Below, in pieces: positions 34,730 through 48,798 of a stretch of DNA of 64,000 nt; the first letter of the stretch is position 1; every line of letters begins with the position of its first letter. Below the pieces are notes generated by a model. It was given only the letters and a program-made list of their open reading frames with translations. It was not told the origin of the DNA and searched no databases. This DNA is from Psococerastis gibbosa (lineage: Eukaryota; Arthropoda; Insecta; Psocodea; Psocidae): contig OZ020484.1 of NCBI GenBank assembly GCA_963971405.1, positions 29,472,770 through 29,536,769 of the forward strand, in the 5' to 3' direction. Both the position numbers and the translations under genes were made by a program.

Positions 34730-37618
34730 TCAATTACGGTTAGAACTTTGGTTTGATACATGCTTTTTATTGATTTGTAAGCGTCTAGCCGCTTTCACGA
34801 GAAGATCAATAAAAACTTCAGTAGTGAGCACCACCCCATCTTCAGTATTTCTACCACCTTCATTCCACTCAGTAAGAGCCATCAGCGGTAGTTTCCTTAC
34901 AGCTCTTCCACTCAATCCCTCACATTCATTAACTATAATTTTGCTATTGTCTTGTGTATTAATTGGTAAAATACCGATTCGTTGCAGCTCATTCAGGCAC
35001 GAAATAAGGATAAGGCGAATTTCTTGTGGACCAGGCGGACCAACGTATTGAATCATATCAGCTCGGTCGGCAAAGGCAGGGTCGATAATTTTTGTGAGAT
35101 TCGATGTGGCCAACACAAAGACGTTGGGAAAGTACCGGAGAATGTCAAGCTGAGTGAGAACGGCGTTGACGACTCGAATGGCATCCGAGGGCTCCCCACT
35201 GTTGATTGAGGCATGGCGAGCTGCAGTCAGGCTTTCTACTTCGTCAATCAAGACAATGACAAGAATCTGTAAGAATGAAAAATATAAGTTAATTAATATA
35301 AGTACAATAGTTGGAGAACAAGACTCTGCTTGCTTATTGCCATTTGCAATAGGTTGACACAAGGGCGTGCGCCTGTAACTATAATTTATGTCAATCATGT
35401 CTAAATATCCATGGACTCGTTGGCATGGCGCAATGACCTCAAGAATTAATTTAATTTTGTCCCGTTTACAGCATGGACAAGTTCAGGGATACATCAACAC
35501 ATTAATAATATGGATAATTTTACATAAATTCACATAATTATATTATTAATATAAAGAAAACAAAATAGGTCGCTTGGCCTAATAGCTTGGTTCTGGGTGT
35601 AAAAAAGAGAAAAAGGCTATAGGGGAGATGGAATAGGCGCTCCTGCCAAGCATATTTTTTTGATTTCTGGTGTCCGCTGCCAAGCCTGCGAGTACTATCT
35701 GAGAACGCTTAAGCGCCCTAAGCGTGCTCTGATTGGTGGAAGAAGATGTTACATTTGGCCCCAGAAATTCCAAAAAATATTCATGGCGGAAGCGGATGGA
35801 AGCGGATATCCCACCTCTTTTTTTTTTTTTTTTTAAAGCGCCAGGCCCATGTGGGTAAACGCGCTTTCTGGTTTGTAGCTTGCGGTGTTGGTTGTCTGTA
35901 TGTCTGTAATGTGTGTGTGTGAGTTGATGGTGTGTGGCAAACTGCGATCAGCAGGGCACTTCTATACAAAACTCAAGGTCTCACCTGAGGATCCGAGGCA
36001 TACTCCCTGATGACAGAAAACATTTTCGCAACCAGTTTTCCACTCTCTGAGAACCATTTGGAAAATAAGCTGTGACAGTTGACTTCTACAAACAAGGCAG
36101 AGGGGAAATCCTTATACATCCTTATGCTTAACTTCTGGGCAAGTGCCTTGCACAGTGTCGTTTTTCCCGTTCCAGGAGGCCCATGAAGCAGGATCAATCT
36201 GTTGCAACACACAATATCCGGATTCACGCCTTTCTTGGCGAGTTGTAGACTTGTCAGGGCGTAGCTTAGGAGTCGCAATTTTACTTTGTCTTCGTAGAAA
36301 AGGGTCTCCCAGAGGCCATCAAACTCACGATTGGGTATGTTCCAGGTAATACTTGAAGTTCCTTGGCTGTCGCCACCTACAAAATAAATAAAGTCTGAGA
36401 AAGACTGGGGAAAGCTTTCCTTGAAGTACTATACCATATGAGTAGGGGATTTTCCTATTCTCCGGGTTATATTTATATTTGATGTACAGTATAATGTATT
36501 TATTATTATTAGTATTCTTTATTAGAGTTAATTACCTTCGCAGCCAAACGTTTCAGTTGACGAACCCTCTGACAACTGAACTGGGAAATACTGAGACCTG
36601 GCCAGTGATCTCTGAAAAAAAAAAAAGTAGCAAAGAACCAATTGAGTGAACACATGCTTTCATACTTATCAACAATAGATAACACGAGTAGACGAGTAGT
36701 CCATGGTGAATAATTGCCCAGAAACAAAATAGCATTAAATAATAACAAATAGGAAAGCAAACGCAAATAATTGACAATTTTCTTCTTCGACACTTTAATG
36801 CACAATTTCTGGTCTTTCACTTTCCTTCATAATTTGTCATAACTAGGCCTACTTATGGTAGATAGGTATAAGTTAGGTAGAAACACGAATCACGTAAATA
36901 GTCAAGTTACGCGACTACTTTACCCAGGCTCTACGTAAAACTTAAGAGCCCTACTCTCCATGTAACATACATTGTTGTTGTGTTGTTGCTTGGTAGCCAA
37001 AGGCTAATTTGAACAACCTCTTGGTCCTAACGTCTCGAATAAATGTCTGCTCCGCTGTACTACAGCTGAAGTATTACACTCGACTTTCTTCGCTTAAGTT
37101 ATCTTCTTTATAAAAGACGACACTGTTCCACACGCACGAATGACTTGGCTCAGTCGATTGTATTGCGCCATACCATTTGCAAAAAGTGACTTTGAGGATG
37201 AACCAGTGGCCAAAACTTGTGCAAATCTTGGAAAGCGTCTTTTAGCGTGTTGACGGACGTCAGAGTTATACTTATAAGAGAATTTAAATACGATGGAAGC
37301 AAACCCTTGGTCATTTTAAACAGAAATGTCATGCTTTCGATGAAAATAGTTTCCTCGACCGTGATTCTTCCTAATGCTAAAATTACAACTTACATTGGAT
37401 AAGCAATTTGTATAAGGGATGTTCTCACTTTGATGGGTATGGAGACAACACAATCTTACAAACTCAATACTTTTCGGTAGTTCGTCGCCGGTGAAAATCC
37501 TATTACAACTAGTATTGCTCGTAATCATTGAGTGAACTGATTGAAATGTAGAATCAAATGCGACATCTCTATGTTCATTTGCTCGAAAAAATATTTCAAT
37601 TTCAACACTTGAAAACAT
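34730..37618 (-). CDS. TRIP13: TRIP13/Pch2 AAA+ ATPase, 4 coding exons
   Basis: Exons 37618-37394, 36611-36536, 36376-35985 and 35266-34730, all in phase, giving 409 residues (human 432). TRIP13/Pch2 is a hexameric AAA+ remodeller of HORMA proteins such as MAD2 and HORMADs, acting in the spindle checkpoint and meiotic chromosome axis. Walker A GPPGTGKT is at 166-173, followed by [12 protein letters not shown] and the family signature [14 protein letters not shown]. Walker B LIDE is at 237-240 with VESLTAARH and [15 protein letters not shown]. Sensor [18 protein letters not shown] and the C-terminal [12 protein letters not shown] complete the ATPase. The N-terminal 75 residues are divergent, as usual for this family. 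The start ATG sits about 80 bp from the end of a giant palindrome. Confidence 0.95.
35603..35831. repeat. Imperfect foldback in TRIP13 intron 3
   Basis: Left arm GGAGATGGAATAGGCGCTCC...GATTTCTGG pairs with right arm CCAGAAATTCCAAAAAATAT...TATCCCACCTC. The same end-block (CCGCCAAGATTTTCTTT, TTTCTGGCG) recurs at 8202-8280 and 59715-59790, indicating an old MITE family. A T15 run follows. Confidence 0.5.
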
Positions 37619-37696
37619 TTTAAAATTAATTGTACGTCTTGTTTGTTTACCAACAACAAATCAGCGCCAAACCGAAAGGTCAAAGGGAGGAAAAGG

Positions 37697-38888
37697 ACTA
37701 ACTTTTATACGCGTCTGGTCACTGCCTTGTATAATGACTTTTCTGTCTATATTTTTCACCGACTTTCAAAAGAGCGGCAAATTTAAAATTTGGTTGAATA
37801 TGAGCGGCCTTATAAATTTCATACTAAACACATCGCGTCTCCTCTCTTTTTTTAGCTCTATTTTTTCCTAAAACTTAGTTTCTATATTACTACGGCAAAT
37901 AAACGTAATGTTCTCCTTATTAACTTTGTAAAACTCATTTAGAATATAATAACCACCGATACGGCAAGATATTTATTAATCGGAGAGGTCTCAAAACATT
38001 GGGTGTAAACAAGAAATGGCCGTGGATTTCGAACGAAATTAATTAATTTTCCGTTTCAGTTATGAAAGTGGTCAGTTGAAAAATGCATATAAAATGTAAG
38101 CTGTCAAAAGAAATTGAGAATTTTCATCAGAAAAAATTGTACTGAAATTATACTTCCAATCATTGAATCACTCATACCATGTACCCGTAAGCTTACCCTT
38201 TACGCATGATATAGATATGTATATAATACCAATGTCAAAAACGAGGGCAAATGTAAAAAAATTTACAAGGATTGGCCGTGTATTTTTGACGAAATCAATT
38301 ATTTTATCATTCCACAGCCTCAAAGATAAATTTAGTCTTCAGTAAAAAAAATCATAATAGGTTCAAACTTTCTCAAAATGCAGTCTATTTCCCTTACTGA
38401 TTTAGGCTACAACTATTGATTAAAATTGTATTATTGCGTTTTACCGGGGGTTTCAGAAGTAGGTATAATAACATTTCTGATGAGACAAGTTGACAAGATG
38501 AGACATTCTCAATTTCCTTCAGCAGCTTACATTTTATGTGAATTTTTCATCATTTTTCATCACTTTCATAACCGAAACGAGAAATTAATTAATTACGTCC
38601 GAAATATACAGCCATTTCTTGTTTGCATACAATTTTTTAAGACCTCTCCCTTAAGTATATATCTTGCCTTAGTAGGCCTACTATAGAAACTAAGTCGAAG
38701 GAAAATAGAGTAAAAAAAGGAGAGGAGGTGCGATGTGTATTTAGGATTAAATTTATCGCTATAATTTATAAGCCATCTCATATTCCACCAAATTTTAAAG
38801 TTGCCGCCCTTTTGAAAGAGGGTGAAAAATATACACAGAAAAGTAATTATACAAGGCAGTGACCAGGCGCGTACAAAAGTTATTACTG
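37697..38888. mobile_element. 1.19-kb giant palindrome between TRIP13 and the ZAD zinc-finger gene
   Basis: Inverted repeat with arms of about 440-460 bp (37697-38160 and 38450-38888), roughly 80 percent matched by eye, and a loop of about 290 bp. Matched blocks include CTGGTCACTGCCTTGTATAA, CGCGTCTCCTCTC, ACTTAGTTTCTAT, AACAAGAAATGGC and TTATGAAAGTG. The left arm has an extra 80-bp segment. There is no ORF. A related fragment lies at 45040-45130. It fills the whole intergenic space, so both promoters lie in or beside its arms. Confidence 0.85.
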
Positions 38889-38943
38889 TCAGTGTGTTTC
38901 AGTTTATTTGCATAATTATATTAGTTTTTACATTTACAAGATA

Positions 38944-41900
38944 ATGTCACAATTTGCTTTAAATTTTGAATTAATTTGTAGAGTTTGCATGAAAGAGTCT
39001 GATAGTAAGAGTACACTGATCGACATTTTCCAGCTGAATCATTTAGAAGATGACCCATCATTGCCTCCAATATTTATTAAATTAATGGCTTGCGCCGCAG
39101 TTCAAGTAAGTTAAGTTAAAACATAATTATTATTTATTATTATGTTATTTTGTTAAAATTTTTTTCTGTGAAGTGACCTTTTGATTGTTATTATACTCTT
39201 ATAAAACATGTTATACTACTGTAACTGGTGACGAATATTAGTAATAGTTATTCTCAATCAATTATAAAGAACATACTTTTGATGATAATTGATTGAGAGT
39301 AACTATTTTTAATAGTATTTTTAATAGTATAGCCTTCGACAGGAAGGCAAATGATTAGGACAATGCATCTAGACTAGAATGGCCAGTCGAATTACACAAT
39401 AGTAGTAATGGCATGAAATGCTATACCTATATATTTGAGATTTTTCTACAAACCAAAACGTTTTCTGGGGAAACAACTTCTTTGTTATTTTACTCTATTT
39501 ATCACATGAAACATGCCTGAATTGAGGGAACATCGATAAAAAGTTTCCCGTGATTTTTTCCCATAAAAAATGAGCCTTTGTATTTAGTTTGCGCCGTGAA
39601 GCATTAAGTTAGGAGTGGCTCAGATTTTTTTTTAACATTAGTAAGGACTACAATAGTGAATTTAAAGGAAATCGTTGTAGTCATTTTTGAGAAACATTTT
39701 TTAAGTTTTTTTTTTAATTTTGGGTATGAAACCCCCAAAATGAGTTTGCCCAAAATAGAAAAAGTAGTCTCGAGATATAATTTATGTGAACATGCCAAAT
39801 TTCACCAAAATCCATTGACTAGTTTGTCCACAAATCGACGGACAGAGAGAGACAGGTTGAATACCTGGGACCTCAAAGTCAAAGCGTGTAAATGCGTTGA
39901 AATCTGGAAATAAAAAATGTCGACCAACACAAAGCTTTACGTAAGTAGGAAACCGATAACGTGACTGCCTAGGACTTCAATATTACAAATCAATAAATAA
40001 TCATTTATTTGCAAACAGTCCTAAAATTCCAATAGAATGCAAATGTCATAATATGAAAATTAAGAATAAAATAAGAATATTATTCTTTGTTCCTTAGTTT
40101 AATTCAAAACCTTAATTTGTAAGTCTCATGTTGAATTTTTGTTTATAGGTGTTCAACGATGACAAATTGCCTCGTTCAATTTGTTTGAATTGCCTCAAGC
40201 GCTTGGATGAATTTTGTGCCTTCAAAGAGTTGATAGAATTTTCTGATGCTAAATTAAGGAACGTTTTAAAAGCTAAGGTATTGCATTTTTTTACACAGTT
40301 CCTGTAGAGGTGCTGTCATGGCGTGAAAGGAAACCGTCCTACTGACAATAATTCAATTAATTTTGAAATTGCTCAACCGTATTGTTGCTTTCTTTCCTCG
40401 ATTATTTTTCGATTTGCTTTCTGCTTTTGCCATAAAGCCATTGCAGGAACCTCACTAAAACCCGTCCTAATACATCCTAACACCATTTTTTTTTTTTTTT
40501 TAATTTTATATTAATTAATATTTTTTCAATTGTTGTTGATAAAAGATAAATGAATATTTGAATTTCTTTTAGGAACAAACAAATCATGAATCTGACATAA
40601 TACATATTAAATTGAGCACTACTGAAAAAACAGGGACCGGTGAAGAAAACGAATTTATTGAAAGCGTTGCTGATGAGCCGCCTTTAGAGATAGCATCTAG
40701 CGATACTTCAGAGAACTGTCCTCGTGATCGTATCAATTCGCAGCTTACTGCTTATTCTTTTACCTGTTCTATTTGCTCCAAAGTGTGCCGTTCTGCTATG
40801 GGCCTCAAAGCTCACCAGAGAGTAAGTAAATGAATAAATATATTAAACGTTTGAAACACTATTGTTTAAATGTAAAACAACATTCAGTTGAGCCATGTGT
40901 GTTTTATAATGGTCGATAAATTTTACTCAGAAATGGCGGGAATTTATCTTAGAAAGAAAGAAAGAAAGAAAATTGTCTCTATTTTCCATATGGGCGAATT
41001 TTGACAATTAACTCATAGAGAAACAGATTATACTTTTATTTATTAGTTGTTATTACTCGACAGATAGGAATATAAAATTGATATAGTCAGCCATTTAAAA
41101 GAGGGTCGTTGGAAATTCGTTTCCTTTTGTAAATGGTGCATTGTAAAAAATAATTGTCATTGCCTCCACTTTGTTGCCGTCTTTGCACTTAAGGGTGCTG
41201 GCATTTGTCCCTGATATCAACCTACATCAGTTTCCATTTGATTATAGACACACGATGGCAAGTCCCTAACATGTGGGGATTGCGGTAAGAGTTTTGCATA
41301 CAAAAGACTGCTGAACCAGCACGTTCTCGTCCACCAACCGAACCGTTCATTCCTATGTTCTGAGTGTGGAAAAGCCTTCAAGACAAAAGGGCAGATGAAA
41401 GTTCACGCTCGAAGACACTTCAACGATCGACCGTTCGACTGTCGATTTTGCGACAAACGATTCTTTCAGGTAAAAGATTAATTTAATTATTAATCACTCA
41501 GTTTTAGTGAAAGCAGTAATTTTGTGTGTCTGGCCGAACATTGATGCAAAAATAATAACACAGCACTGTCATAGGATAAAAATAGAGGCTAAAACAATAC
41601 TGATTTGTCTGTTTTTGGCTATACGTAACAAGTAATGCAATATGACATAGGCGCAAAGTGCTTTCTTGAGTATTACACATTTTAGAGTTTTAGACGGTCT
41701 TTGGGCAATCTCGTTGTCCAACGCGCTCCCGATAGTAAGTTGCCGGAACACGCCAACACCGCACAACAACAAAAAATCAAACAAACTAGCCATATTTTAT
41801 AATCAACTGTCCATGATGTGACATACTACCCGACCAGTATAGGATGAAATATGGATTACTTATATATATATATATATATATTACTTATAAAAATCGATCG

Positions 41901-44393
41901 AAATTGTTCCGGTTTTGCAAGTTTTACAAATGCCATCCTATCGTGATTGCGATTTAAAAAACCGGTCCGAGCTCACTCGAACATGCATTTCCAATTTATA
42001 AATTAGTAGATAGAGATAATGATTAATTTCACGGTAAATAATTACCCTATGGTTAAATTTCGTCTGACCCCCTGTCTACGGCCTTGGATATCCCCTATCC
42101 CAAAGCACTGAATTGATCAATGGGGTTGCATATTCTGGAACGAGCAGACCAATACATTGTAACAGTAGTAATAATGACAGAGCACGCAATGTATTGGATC
42201 GTGAATTTTCCATAATTTCTTCAAAAAATTATTTTTTCCATAGAACCAAATATTTTTTTGGGAAAGCAACCTGTCCAGTTTTGTTACTCAATTTAATACC
42301 TAAAACTTGTCCGAAGGTAGAAATCATCGATAGAAAAATTCCGCAAAAAAATTATTTTTTAGTCATTTTTCATGAAAATTGAGTTTTTTTATTTTTTTAC
42401 CCTTAGAAGCAAACTATCAAGGGGAAAGTGACCCACCGCATTTTGTTAACATTAATAACGACTAAAATATATGTGAATTTAAAAGAAATCGTTGGAGCCG
42501 TTTTTGTGAAATAATTTTTTTTTAGTTTTTTTAGAATAAACCCCCCCCCCCCCAAATCGAGTTAGCCCAAAAGGAAAAAAAATGGTCCCGAGGTATAATT
42601 TTGGTCAACCTATATGCCACAACTCATCAAAATCGACCGAGTAGTTTGCCCGGAAATCGATGAACAGACAGACAGACAGACATTTCGTAAAAACCATTTT
42701 TTTTTTTGGTTCCTGCGACCTCAAAACATGTAAATCCGTTGAAATCTCGGAGTCGAAAATTTTGACCATCACAAAGCTTTCCTTATACTACGTATAAATT
42801 GTAAAGCAAAAACAGGGCTTAGTCCTGTGTCGGGGCCGACACAGCTACCTTAGCTAAGGAAATGTGTTAGTGTAACCAGAGGGACAAAATGTGAAACCTC
42901 GGGTTGCAAAAAAAGAGGTGAACCTAGTAAAACAAGTAAAACAAGAAAAAAATCCCTTTCGGCTCTGGCCGATCAGGTGTAGGGAGATTCCATGCAAGCG
43001 CAGGCCCAACTTCTCCTCTATGCTACGCTATGTTTGCTTCATTATTTTCCCAACAACAGCATCAACACACAAAGCACTCTTGTGTTCCAAATTTCGAACC
43101 ACAATGACGTATTTGAACTTTTACTTTTATCAAATCATTTTTGTTATTTTCACTTTGACTAGACGCCATCTTGAAATCGTTGATTTGTCGTAAAAAGTGT
43201 TGATTACGATGATTGTAGGTTTTAGGTCATTCCCCTGCGACCAATATCAACTGAGATATGAAATATATAAGGTTTTCATTATCTATCTATCTATCTTGGA
43301 ACAAAATGACTTATCATGCTGGTTAACGAACTCGATCAAGACATTTGTATGATCAATTTTTAGAGTGTTTCCTAAAATCTATATACATACATATAATTAT
43401 ATTATTATATTATATTATAATACATTTTGAATGGGGGGGGGGGGGTGGTTTTAGACTGATTAGGTCATGAAACGAAAAGTTGTGAAGATAAATTTTCCGG
43501 AAGTCGAACATTGGTCGCCGTCTCAATATGTAGATGAATCTACCTAAAACTGAACAGCTTCCATGAACCCATACTCTTTGAAAATTGTGTCACAGAAATT
43601 TTTATCTGTGCATTTCTAGGCAAGCCATCGCGATCAACACGTAAACATACACACGGGGGATCGGCCATATTCGTGTCATCTCTGCGACAAGCGTTTCCGG
43701 AATCGAACGGGTCTTCAGGGCCATTTGCGACGGCACCAAGGCATTCTGCCCTACAAATGTGAACAGTGCGGAAAACAATTTGCGCTGAAATCGTCTGTCA
43801 AAAACCATGCGCGGCTACACCTAGGGGAAAAACCTTATCAGTGTGAAGTTTGTCAACGAAATTTCGCGCTTTCGAGCTCATTACGTGTGCACATGCGCGT
43901 TCACTCCGCTGATACCGCCAGTGTCTGTGATACCTGTGGTAAAACATTTACTTGTGCCCGCCATCTTTCGGAACATTTGAAAACCCACTCCGATCAGCGC
44001 CATTTTGTTTGCGTTACTTGTGATAAAGGATTTAAGCAGAAGGTCGGTTTAATGCTTCATATGAAAATACATAGTGAGGAGAGGCCATTTCAGTGCGACC
44101 TGTGCCAGAGAACTTTTGCAAGTAGGCAGACTTTTGAGGTTCACTATCGTCGGCATACCGGACTGAAGCCATATTCTTGTAAAATTTGCGATAAAAATTT
44201 CAGGCAGAACTCAACGTTGCGTGCGCATTTGAGTACCCATATGAGAGGCGACGGTTTCAGGTGTCCCCATTGTAGGGTGGAAATTTATGGGAATAATGAG
44301 CTAAATGAGCATTTGGCTACTTGTATGTTGAGGCAGGCTCATGTGGGCCAAACTGTTGAACGAGCTGTAGTTATAGGGCAGCCGTTCTTTTGA
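38944..44393 (+). CDS. ZAD C2H2 zinc-finger protein, 12 fingers, 5 exons
   Basis: Exons 38944-39105, 40149-40277, 40573-40821, 41248-41469 and 43620-44393, all in phase, giving 511 residues. The ZAD domain is built from exons 1-2: Cys12/Cys15 (CRVCM) and Cys66/Cys69 (ICLNCLKRL), with the typical DKLPRSIC. An acidic linker (exon 3) precedes eleven C2H2 fingers joined by TGEKP-like linkers, two of them split by introns, and a final degenerate C2HC unit ending in ATC. ZAD-ZNF proteins are insect-expanded transcription factors whose ZAD dimerises; many bind DNA in oogenesis or act at insulators. Target and orthologue are not recognisable from sequence. The ATG lies about 56 bp from the palindrome's right end. 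Confidence 0.92.
39430..39955 (-). repeat. GTCT-repeat element, decayed reverse copy
   Basis: In intron 1 of the zinc-finger gene. Reverse-strand blocks match the family: TCAGGCATGTTTCATG, ACCCCCAAAATGAGTTTGCC, TCGACGGACAGAGAGAGACA and ACACAAAGCTTTACGTAAG. The GTCT tract has decayed to GTCTCTCTCTGTC on the minus strand. Confidence 0.55.
40962..41010. repeat. GAAA microsatellite with short conserved tail
   Basis: (GAAA)n run followed by AAAATTGTCTCTATTTTCCA TATGGGCGAATTTTG. The same unit with GAAAGAAA occurs at 53030-53070, so it is an element end rather than a lone microsatellite. Confidence 0.5.
41858..41882. repeat. (TA)n microsatellite
   Basis: About ten TA repeats in intron 4 of the zinc-finger gene. 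Confidence 0.8.
41958..42807 (-). mobile_element. GTCT-repeat element, near-full-length reverse copy
   Basis: Begins with reversed ACCGGTCCGAGCTCACTCGA and ends GTATAAATTGTAAAGC. Contains the C-run, CAGACAGACAGACAGAC and the terminal AAAGCTTTCCTTATACTACG. In intron 4 of the zinc-finger gene, opposite to the gene's strand. Confidence 0.65.
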
Positions 44394-44649: not shown

Positions 44650-45254
44650 GAGAGCGGCGCCAAATGCTACTAACTTCCCTAAATTGATTAGAGACCATCT
44701 CTTAGAGAAAGCTTTCTACAAGACAGAATGACAGAACTACCTGATTTTGATGATATTTTGACGATTTTACTTCATACTTTCTTGTCGATTACTTGATTGT
44801 ATAATTTAACAGAAATATATGCATGTAGCCTATTTATTTATTATTTATTTATTCTAGCGATGCTAATCAGAACCTCAAAATCATAAAACTTAGACATTTT
44901 GTTCTACTCCTGTAGTAGAGGATTCAGTAAACAAGTGAACTTTTAATGTGTTACATAAATACGCCTCCCTTTTGGGCTCGACATAATTTTAATGAAAACA
45001 TCACTCATGATCAAAGAAGTCTAATTTCAAAATATTTTGTTAACAAGGAATGGTTGTGTATTTTTAACGAAATTAATTAATTTCTCGTTCCGCAAAAATA
45101 TGATAGTGGTGAAATGAAAAATACAAGCTACCGTTAAAACAAACTTGACGCAGTTTTTAATTGAATTATTTAGTTTTTAATGGTCCGAATTATGAGTTTG
45201 TATCTGAACCTCACGCCAGCAACTTTTGGATTTTCTAATTCTTTTTCTTGCAGT
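44650..45254. other. Intergenic between zinc-finger gene and hAT
   Basis: No gene. 45040-45130 (ACAAGGAATGGTTGTGTATT, GAAATTAATTAATTTCTCGT) is a fragment of the palindrome family at 37697-38888. Confidence 0.5.
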
Positions 45255-46048
45255 CTTGAGTACAGTGCCGGGTTTGGCTATGGGGCACTGTGGGCCCGGG
45301 CCCCAGGGCCCCCACAAAAATGGGGCCCCCACAAAACGAAAAAATACAAATAAAAAATTGAAAAAATTAAAAAAAATCAAAACAGATAACTTTTTAAATT
45401 TTCGCGGGAAATTCGAACGCATCGTGGCATTAATGACTCATTTTTGATAAAAATTTAACAAAAAATGAAGTATGTCCACTCCTGCTCTGAAACCACGATT
45501 GTTTTGCTTCATTAAATACAAATTGAAAATTTGAAATCAAATTTCTAAATTGAAACTACTTTTATCAGCACTTTCTGGTTGGTATATTGTTAAGGTAAGT
45601 AGCATAAGTTAATTCTTATATTAGAGGCGGAAGTACCTAATAGTTGTTCTTTATAAGATAAGGTCCTTATTTTTCGTATTCTGCGCCCATTTACCACAAT
45701 TCACAGAACGCATCAAAACTTTGTAAGCCTATTAATTTTAATACGAAATGTGCCCAGCCACGTGGTCGCCACAAAATCGAGCACGTTATAAATATAAAAT
45801 TCATTGGTCTAAAATGTTATATGTCATAAAATGTTATATTATAAGACGCATGATTCGGAATTTTGAGATGTTTTATACAAAAGGGGATAAAAAATAAAAT
45901 GTATTCGATTTTGTGGTGACCACGTGGCTGCACATTTCATCTTAAGTAGGGCAATAGGAACAAGTGGACTAGATAATTAGGCTCTGGCTAGTGAGTTCTG
46001 AAAAAACTAATTTATTACAATTTTTATTTTTGATTCCGTAGTGAAATA

Positions 46049-48798
46049 ATGGATCGTCACAAGGGAAAACGCGAATATGCAAGCGGCAGTGAAAAGCGGA
46101 AAATCGCAGCAGATAAAGAAAACAAAATTCAAGATGTTTTATCTAAAACGCGCCGTATAACGGATTTTGTAACAAAAATAGAGACGGGTCCATCTACTCC
46201 TAGTTCTACTTCTAATTTTGTTGAAATGATGAGTGGTGATTCTGATTTTCCTGCATCTTCTCAAGTTATTGCTAGCCCTACCCAAGAGGTAAGAGTTTGA
46301 CTTTAATTACTTAATTAAGGTGACCGCAATCAAAAATTACCGACCCCACTCACCCCAGTAATTCTTATGGAATTAAAAATGGGGGACTCCTGTTAATTTA
46401 CTGTATGAATTAAACCTACCTAAACTTGAGTCGGCCATGCCGAAAGGATTGTTTACAAAATTAATTACAACTGTAATTGTTTTACTTGTAGGCAGTAATT
46501 GATAACAATGACGAATCCGAAAATACTGCTGATGATGGATTTTGCAAAGAAAATGACGTGGGATTGTGGCCAGCAGTTCTTAGTCAACAACACATCGACT
46601 ATTGGATCAAGAAAGGAAATTTGGAAACTCAGCATTGTAATGAAGATATTTTGAAAGAAAAAAGCTTGGGACAAGTAGATGCAGTGAAAAGAAGAAAATG
46701 CCATGCAAGTTTATTCCTTCGTCAAACTCAGGCAGGCAAGTCTATAAGCCGCTCTTGGTTATGTTTTTCACCTAGTACGGGGAAGCTATACTGCTTTTAT
46801 TGTAAATTGCTCTGCAAATCAGCAAATCAGTTTTCAACTGAAGGGTTTGCTGACTGGAAGCATGCGTCTGAGCGTTTGAAAAGACATGAAACTACCGTAA
46901 CGCATTTGCAAATAGTTTGCCAATTTAAGCATCTCTCAAACGAGGCAATGCGTATTGATCGTGAGTTGGCCACACAAGTGAAGGAGAGCATTGCTTATTG
47001 GCGAAACGTTCTAAACAGATTGATTTCCGTCATAATATTTCTTTCTGGACGAGGACTTGCCTTTCGAGGGGACAACGAAATTTTGGGATCAACCAAAAAT
47101 GGCAATTATTTGGGAGTCCTTGAGCTAATTGCACAATATGATCCGTTTTTAGTAGGCCACTTAGAGAAGCATGGAAATCGTGGCAGTGGTAGTGGCGGCG
47201 TTAACTACCTATCTGCCCACATTTGCGAAGAATTAATTGCGCTGATGTCCACCAAAGTTAGCGATGAAATAATTAAACGCTTAAAAGCCTGCAAATATTA
47301 TTCGGTTTCGGTAGATTCAACAACTGACGAAGGCCATATAGATCAAATGACTGTGATTGTCAGGTATCTAGAAGAAAGCACACCAAAGGAAAGATTTCTT
47401 AGTTTTATGCCAAACCAAGGCCATAAAGCTAAAGAATTATTTGATGGCCTCAACAAAGTTTTAAAAAAGTTCGGCCTGGATTTGAAAGATATTCGTGGGC
47501 AGTCGTATGACAATGCTTCCGCTATGAGTGGAGAATATAGTGGTCTACGCACTTTGGTGCTAAATGAGAATCCTTTGGCTTTATGGGTTCCATGTTTCAA
47601 TCATTCCCTCAACTTAGTGGGCACAAAAGCGATGGACTCCTGCTCCCAATCGAAATTATTTTTTAGCTTTCTTGAGCAAATTTATGTATTTTTTACAAGT
47701 TCCACAGCTCGGTTCAACGTCCTTTCAAATGTTCTAAAAAGTGCTGCGAAGAAGTATGGCCACAACATACCAGTGCCCAAAAGAATCAGTTTAACCCGGT
47801 GGTCCTCAAGAGCGGAAGCTACTAATAGCCTAGTTTTGGGCTATAACGAAATACGAGAAGTCCTTAAAGATCTCTCCGAAGAAGATGTCCAAGCAAGTGG
47901 ACTCTATTTGCAAATTACCACGTTGGAGATAGCAATTTACGCTGTTCTTTGGAACGATATACTGGCAAGGGTGAATGCAGTAAACATCAATCTCCAGAAT
48001 CCAAGAATCGACATTAATACTTCGATCAGTCTGATGGAGTCCCTTAAGATCTTCATTGGGGAATTTAGGGATTCTTTCCAAGAATATGAGAAAAAGGGTG
48101 TTGAATTGTGTGGGCAGAATTCTTATAAATCGGAAACTTTGCGGAAGCGGATCCGAAATGTGAGGCTAAATCCTTTGGATTATGGGAAAACTGAGGAAGC
48201 TGAATTCAGTCATAGCGAGAAATTCCGAATCGAAAGTTTCATTCCCATAATTGACCAGTTTATGCAATCATTGGATCGGAGAATTTCAGCATATGAAGAC
48301 ATAAATAGGAAATTTGGATTTTTACAATATTTAGAAAAAATAAGCCCTGATGATTTGAAAACTAGGGCAGAGAACCTGGTGAGTTGTTACACAGGTGACT
48401 TGGACGGTAACTTGTACTTCGAGCTAGTACAGTTTCGTGAGTTTGTGAAATTATTTGTGATAGATGATGCACAAAAAAACAATATAATCGAAGAAAAACG
48501 TATCAGTTTTGAACGGTTCATGTACAATTTGATTTTAGAAAGAGGAGTAGCTGATAGCTTTCCCAATGTAGAAGTACTTTTGAAGATGTACTTAGTTATA
48601 ATGAGTGGCAACATAAGCAGCGAGCGATCTTTTTCCGTACTAAAACACATAAAAAATCCTCGTCGCACCAGTTCTTCTGAAGCTCGGCTTAGCCATCTTT
48701 CAATGCTGAATATAAATCACGACATAGTGGCAGCGTTAAATTATGACGATATAATTGACAGTTTTGCTGTAATAAAGAGTCGAAGAGTGCATCTTTAA
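46049..48798 (+). CDS. hAT transposase (ZMYM1-like, DUF4371/hATC), intact, 2 exons
   Basis: Exons 46049-46288 and 46492-48798 with a 203-bp intron (GTAAGA...TTGTAG), phase 0, giving 848 residues. It cuts and pastes the element by binding its ends. A TTF-type zinc finger lies at about 165-188 (SRSWLCFSPSTGKLYCFYCK). The RNase H-like catalytic acidic residues are probably Asp355 (VSVDSTTDEGH), Asp420 (GQSYDNAS) and Glu791 (NISSERSFSVLKHIKN), the last within the hATC dimerisation domain. There are no stops or frameshifts. Exon 1 is a Lys-rich, low-complexity N-terminus. Similar proteins are often annotated as zinc finger MYM-type protein 1-like. The first ATG follows the TIR and a leader of about 780 bp. 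Confidence 0.93.

Follow-up and report, generated by a model that had tools for sequence, protein, structure and literature searches.

The gap between two head-to-head genes of Psococerastis gibbosa, a TRIP13 homologue and a ZAD zinc-finger gene, is probably occupied by an old, non-autonomous copy of a transposon with long terminal inverted repeats (TIRs), most likely of the MULE/Phantom foldback type, which inserted between genes that kept their own starts. The window analysed was a 64,000-nucleotide stretch of contig OZ020484.1. The inverted repeat accounts for 1194 of the 1325 bp separating the two proposed ATGs (Table 1), its ends having been placed with the help of other family copies. 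The initial annotation had described a palindrome at 37697-38888 as the entire intergenic region of the two genes. The palindrome was confirmed at 37694-38887; however, the element fills about 90% of the gap, and 75 + 56 = 131 bp of the gap is non-element DNA. The outer segments of the arms (37699-37889 and 38679-38882) showed 81% identity over 206 aligned columns (E 6e-53) and the inner segments (37960-38128 and 38497-38671) showed 80% identity over 175 columns (E 5e-41), thereby ruling out a chance palindrome. The arms, about 390-435 bp long, had also been called near-identical, which did not hold, since about 20% of the aligned sites differ, in addition to indels. The spacer also holds a piece of arm sequence in direct orientation: 38265-38305, as a third copy, resembles 38009-38049 (80%).

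Table 1. Features of the TRIP13-ZAD intergenic region and its surroundings (positions in the window)
Feature	Position	Strand	Remarks
TRIP13 homologue	34730..37618	-	Pfam matches on 34730-35482 and 35973-36428; proposed first exon 37316-37618
Flank 5' of proposed TRIP13 ATG	37619..37693	-	75 bp; E2F-like TTTGGCGC at 37671-37664 (-)
Non-autonomous long-TIR DNA transposon copy (palindrome)	37694..38887	.	Inverted arms; termini via other copies
Left arm (TIR)	37694..38128	+	Terminus AGGACTAAC
Spacer between arms	38129..38496	.	
Right arm (TIR)	38497..38887	-	Final six bases decayed: ATTACT replaces AGTCCT
Flank 5' of ZAD ATG	38888..38943	+	56 bp; TCAGT initiator-like at 38889 and 38899
ZAD zinc-finger gene	38944..44393	+	Exon 1 from 38944; ZAD second half 40149-40304; fingers 43620-44393
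Solo fragment of the same family, matching both arms	45027..45125	.	75% over 101 columns

Arms of this family are dispersed in the P. gibbosa genome. At least 46 matches were obtained with an arm as query (40 of 116 candidates scored, the query counted), at least 42 in another arm search (40 of 311 scored, the query counted) and at least 43 with the arm of a sister subfamily (40 of 105 scored, the query counted). Part of the spacer (38194-38493) also matched dispersed copies, at least 41 in number when 40 of 844 candidates were scored and the query itself was counted. The outer arm was present in 35 of the 49 loci fetched, namely in all 20 chosen for arm matches, in 10 of the 20 taken on inner-arm, spacer or arm matches, and in five of the nine terminal-pattern loci (L051, L054, L056 and L057 were without it). 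Family copies were often pairs of inverted arms about 0.6-6.3 kb apart with the common terminus AGGACT. With inverted termini, a common terminus and dispersed copies, the family has the attributes of a class II TIR transposon. Taken by itself, the 18-base terminal pattern lacks specificity at two mismatches: it gave 39 matches with up to two mismatches as compared to 75 for the reversed control, and most of these matches are therefore due to chance. A search for further copies of the arm had been advised as a check, and the dispersed, paired arms with a common terminus that it returned, together with the family-level 9-bp duplication signal given below, upheld the earlier reading of a mobile element. 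The family fragment claimed at 45040-45130 was likewise recovered, with shifted bounds (Table 1).

Target-site duplication was assessed in 12 copies. Nine-mers paired within their own copy agreed at a mean of 4.33 of 9 positions, as compared to 2.59 over 132 cross pairs, and 11 of 20000 re-pairings reached the observed own-pair sum. Among lengths 4-12, identity was highest at 9 (0.262 at 7, 0.292 at 8 and 0.481 at 9). The match was 6/9 or better in four of the 12 copies and 5/9 or less in the other eight. The frame of this test (the terminal A and the right anchor of one pair) was chosen after looking at the sequences; shifting that anchor by one base took its pair from 2/9 to 7/9, and the peak was at length 9 either way (0.435 and 0.481). 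Left out of the 12 were seven inverted pairs with a terminus truncated or not placed: L010, L011, L015, L022, L030, C19:209011-212211 and C1:21820537-21823927; in the last two, no plain duplication was seen on inspection. The window copy itself had no detectable duplication (3/9 matches), which we infer to be due to its age and its decayed right end.

The family-level signal points to Mutator-like (MULE/Phantom, foldback-type) elements, in that it agrees with duplications of 8-10 bp, mostly 9 bp, in a frame set post hoc. The length of the arms agrees as well, long TIRs being common in the MULE superfamily, if not universal. No transposase could be linked to the family in the interiors of the longer copies or in the flanks of MULE-domain loci. 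Stop-to-stop frames of 16 loci were read by eye, listed from 70 residues upwards for L009, L010, L011, L014, L019 and L022, and from 110 residues upwards for L027, L029, L032, L034, L040, L050, L073, L074, L075 and L077. An autonomous copy among the longer members was rejected, the recognisable coding pieces inside several of them being what we take to be retroelement-like, by resemblance to the eye and without a profile search. The MULE domain PF10551 occurs at 15 places in the genome; examined as a possible source of the family, they showed no family arm within about 1.5 kb (about 3.5 kb for three of the 15). With no transposase linked to it, the family could be a foldback element of another superfamily, such as the P-like Galileo of Drosophila, although we regard this as unlikely. 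Galileo likewise has long inverted arms and numerous copies that lack a transposase (PMC4168063); however, it belongs to the P superfamily and has target duplications of 7-8 bp with a consensus, whereas the signal here peaked at 9. At its right end (38880-38886) the window copy has TTATTAC, one base off the GTATTAC of Galileo, but it has no mirror at the left end and is probably a chance resemblance.

The TRIP13 homologue was identified from two downstream exons, which match PF23242 (6.3e-10) and AAA. Its proposed first exon had no Pfam match, and none among solved structures at E 10; therefore, we infer the ATG at 37618-37616 (-). Since this ATG is not itself backed by homology, the 75-bp flank is less certain, and our confidence in the explanation given at the outset is slightly lowered. 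The ZAD domain (zf-AD, PF07776) was detected at 3e-11 on the two-exon join, and 38944-38946 (+) is the first in-frame ATG after the upstream stop; this start is well supported. The distal fingers probably form part of the same gene. In a genome search that skips very common words, both flanks matched only themselves. A locally duplicated promoter was thus ruled out, as the arms are dispersed whereas the flanks are not. Such unique flanks, with their E2F-like and initiator-like motifs, lead us to think that the main starts of both genes lie outside the arms.

It had been proposed earlier that the arms might give near-identical promoter sequence to both genes, possibly kept alike by arm-to-arm conversion, and the element does extend near both proposed 5' ends. 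In the tree, the two window arms (win_L and win_R) lie closest to one another (support 93/87, 85% identity), so that the element may have undergone internal homogenisation in the past, and MULE TIRs can carry promoters (PMC3310237). Even so, we consider matched promoters very unlikely. In MuDR, the promoters of the TIRs point inwards and transcribe two convergent genes of the element itself (PMC3310237). The window arms differ at about 20% of sites and are about as diverged as the arms of other copies: the path between them, as summed branches, is 0.17, inside the range of 0.04 to about 0.6 of the other copies, and with 80-81% identity upkeep through conversion was not borne out. An outward TATAAAA (37709-37703 (-), 85-91 bp upstream of the proposed TRIP13 ATG) is present in the left arm only, so that in this motif the arms are not a matched pair, while the initiator-like and E2F-like motifs are located outside them. 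A shared promoter pair would thus appear unsupported.

The left arm alone might have been co-opted, with its TATAAAA as a TATA-type core promoter for TRIP13. An outward TATAWA occurs in the outer 45 bp of five of 47 arms, some ends being extrapolated, and at that very place in win_L only. However, co-option of this kind is highly unlikely, since TATAWA is frequent (the two strands of the window hold 187), inspection by eye gave no good initiator some 30 bp further downstream, and the motif was picked after seeing the sequence, in front of a TRIP13 start that is itself a proposed one. An outward transcript from the outer arm cannot span both arms, so that promoters in the arms and a hairpin RNA would call for separate start sites. 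On the hairpin proposal, the inverted repeat would yield a long hairpin RNA and, from it, small RNAs that control the family or adjacent genes, which we hold to be extremely unlikely. The full-length transcript is predicted to fold strongly (minimum -464 kcal/mol, over more than 1000 bases and without a shuffle control), but a strong fold is expected of any such palindrome, and the hairpin would need read-through from outside one arm.

For the preferred MULE-like insertion, the description of Tm1, a Mutator/Foldback element of root-knot nematodes, offers a likeness, by description and not by sequence. Tm1 has long composite inverted termini, MITE-like non-autonomous copies and duplications of 8-10 bp, mostly 9 bp (45 of 53 complete elements), some copies being without duplication too (PMC3169594). 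Tm1 differs in having a member with a Phantom-type transposase, none being found for the family here, and in a mean arm identity within one element of 93.15% (PMC3169594), as compared to about 80% in the window. Arthropod MULEs, in a survey that counts transposase-bearing members (PMC13359780), have TIRs of 20-95 bp in most species, shorter than the arms of about 400 bp seen here, which nevertheless lie inside the reported range of 13 to 1193 bp; the window copy is non-coding. A transposase acting in trans would have moved the element, which would have landed between head-to-head genes; about 131 bp would have separated their ATGs at that time, provided that the TRIP13 ATG is correct. Each gene would have gone on using a start region of its own in the 75 + 56 bp that border the element, while its arms would since have decayed roughly like those of other copies, with no required role.

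A bolder reading, which we think improbable, is that a MULE-like palindrome split a bidirectional TRIP13/ZAD promoter of about 131 bp and that one or both arms now add a core promoter, such as the left-arm TATAAAA. If true, TRIP13, a meiotic-checkpoint gene, and the ZAD gene would have been pushed 1.2 kb apart. As it stands, a new regulatory arrangement has not been demonstrated, and the window element is one more decayed non-autonomous long-TIR copy. Being a clear palindromic transposon in a short gap between divergent genes, it provides a useful test of how far host promoters tolerate insertion.

The inverted repeat reported in the initial annotation between the TRIP13 homologue and the ZAD zinc-finger gene was recovered by self-BLAST of the region as two pairs of arm segments, and the repeat finder gave ungapped stretches of both arms as 71-89% complementary. 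The right end of this copy has decayed. The suggestion that the palindrome is a mobile element was also upheld, as it is a dispersed, non-coding transposon with long terminal inverted repeats (TIRs) and a shared terminus. In its own genome, at least 46 matches were recorded for the left arm (outer 304 bp; best 40 of 116 candidates scored), at least 42 for the inner arm (best 40 of 311) and at least 41 for the spacer between the arms (best 40 of 844), the query being included in each case. The outer arm was present in 35 of the 49 fetched loci, and many arm matches were paired and inverted, e.g. C2:29798807-29800012, C12:31214271-31214861 and C12:23075300-23076204. The subfamily that includes the window copy has the terminus AGGACTAAC, and a sister subfamily has AGGACTGCC. 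Taken alone, an 18-base terminal pattern (≤2 mismatches) is weak evidence for the family, with 39 matches versus 75 for the reversed control. Two right ends on different contigs (L014 on C12, L024 on C15) had the same flank beside the terminus, so that one repeat was probably hit twice or carried along.

Features of the region, in window coordinates
Feature	Position	Strand	Basis or remark
TRIP13 homologue, proposed first exon	ATG 37618	-	start inferred from open frame
Palindromic element	37694-38887		1194 bp, set by family terminus
Arm segment 1	37699-37889 / 38679-38882		81% over 206 columns, E 6e-53
Arm segment 2	37960-38128 / 38497-38671		80% over 175 columns, E 5e-41
ZAD zinc-finger gene	exon 1 ATG 38944; open frame at 40149	+	zf-AD 3e-11 once the two are joined
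Direct repeats	39656-39943; 42473-42785		~80% alike, 2.8 kb apart, inside zinc-finger gene span
Short inverted repeat	45755-45814 / 45871-45930		arms of 60 bp (73% complementary) with ends CAGCCACGTGG...; may be a small MITE of its own
hAT-like transposase gene	46492-48798	+	downstream of zinc-finger gene; uninterrupted 768-residue frame, DUF4371 1.1e-19; hAT dimerisation match weak, under its cut-off

For 12 copies with the terminus fixed, the 9 bases on one side were set against the 9 on the other, in a frame picked after copies had been seen and with one anchor corrected by one base. Own pairs matched at 1, 1, 2, 3, 3, 3, 4, 5, 6, 7, 8 and 9 of 9 positions (mean 4.33), versus a mean of 2.59 and none above 6 for the 132 cross pairs; only 11 of 20000 random re-pairings reached the observed sum. 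Among lengths 4-12, left/right identity was highest at 9 (0.481; second, 0.292 at 8), and the peak held without the anchor correction (0.435). The window copy itself had no target duplication (3/9 bases). The family as a whole thus shows a 9-bp duplication signal. The Mutator/Foldback element Tm1 is reported to combine a 9-bp duplication with long arms (PMC3169594), whereas the duplication of Galileo is 7-8 bp (PMC4168063), and TIRs of arthropod MULEs span 13 to 1193 bp, mostly 20-95 bp (PMC13359780). Assignment of the family to the MULEs is not proved and is made on structure, because no family arm was found in the DNA fetched around the 15 places of the genome with a MULE domain (~1.5 kb each side of all 15, ~3.5 kb for 3). 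Seven loci with this domain (L058-L062, L068 and L069) form a family that looks recent, since they are mostly 91-100% alike over aligned parts and have open frames of up to 616 residues; the DNA fetched there contained no palindrome-family arm.

The arms had been proposed to act as near-identical twin promoters, either supplied by a palindromic transposon or maintained by conversion. When 35 arms were placed in a tree, those of the window copy came out nearest to one another (85% identity across 201 columns, path 0.17; support 93/87, under the starred level). This sister placement allows some past homogenisation, but the two arms are not being kept near-identical at present. Approximate arm-to-arm paths of other copies, summed from the same tree, were 0.04 (L012), 0.10 (L013) and 0.25 (L011), all with sister arms; 0.12 (L009), 0.16 (L014) and 0.29 (L015), all unresolved; and 0.6 (L010, not paired). 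Since the window path falls among these, the copy is unremarkable in arm divergence.

The TRIP13 homologue has Pfam support in two exons (PF23242 and AAA), and its proposed first exon had no match in Pfam, or in solved structures at E 10. The element lies 75 bp from the TRIP13 ATG and 56 bp from the ZAD ATG. In the own-genome search (very common words skipped), 37600-37693 and 38888-39110 each matched only itself. The TRIP13 flank contains TTTGGCGC, an E2F-like site; counting both strands of the window, there are 4 instances of the exact 8-mer, with 0.0023 expected per strand over 75 bp, and 13 of the looser TTTSSCGC (0.0076 expected). In the ZAD flank, the arthropod initiator core TCAGT is present twice, against an expectation of 0.067 per strand over 56 bp. 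Published reports describe activation of human TRIP13 by E2F1 at its promoter (PMC13143902) and a functional DREAM site in mouse Trip13 (PMC10581385). The motifs of the two flanks, sought after the fact, are no more than suggestive of start regions of both genes outside the arms. However, a contribution of the left arm to the TRIP13 promoter is possible, because this arm carries an outward TATAAAA at a place where none of the other arms has it (47 arms examined). Among the titles listed on transposon insertion at bidirectional promoters, none is about an insect palindrome of this kind, and we make no wider claim of novelty.

A hairpin RNA had also been proposed; folding of a full-length transcript was predicted at -464 kcal/mol (no shuffle control), which follows from the palindrome and is no evidence of function. 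We propose that the element, mobilised in trans by a transposase of the MULE type, would have inserted into the ~131-bp gap separating the two ATGs, that the TRIP13 and ZAD genes would retain their own start regions, and that the arms of this copy would have decayed afterwards.
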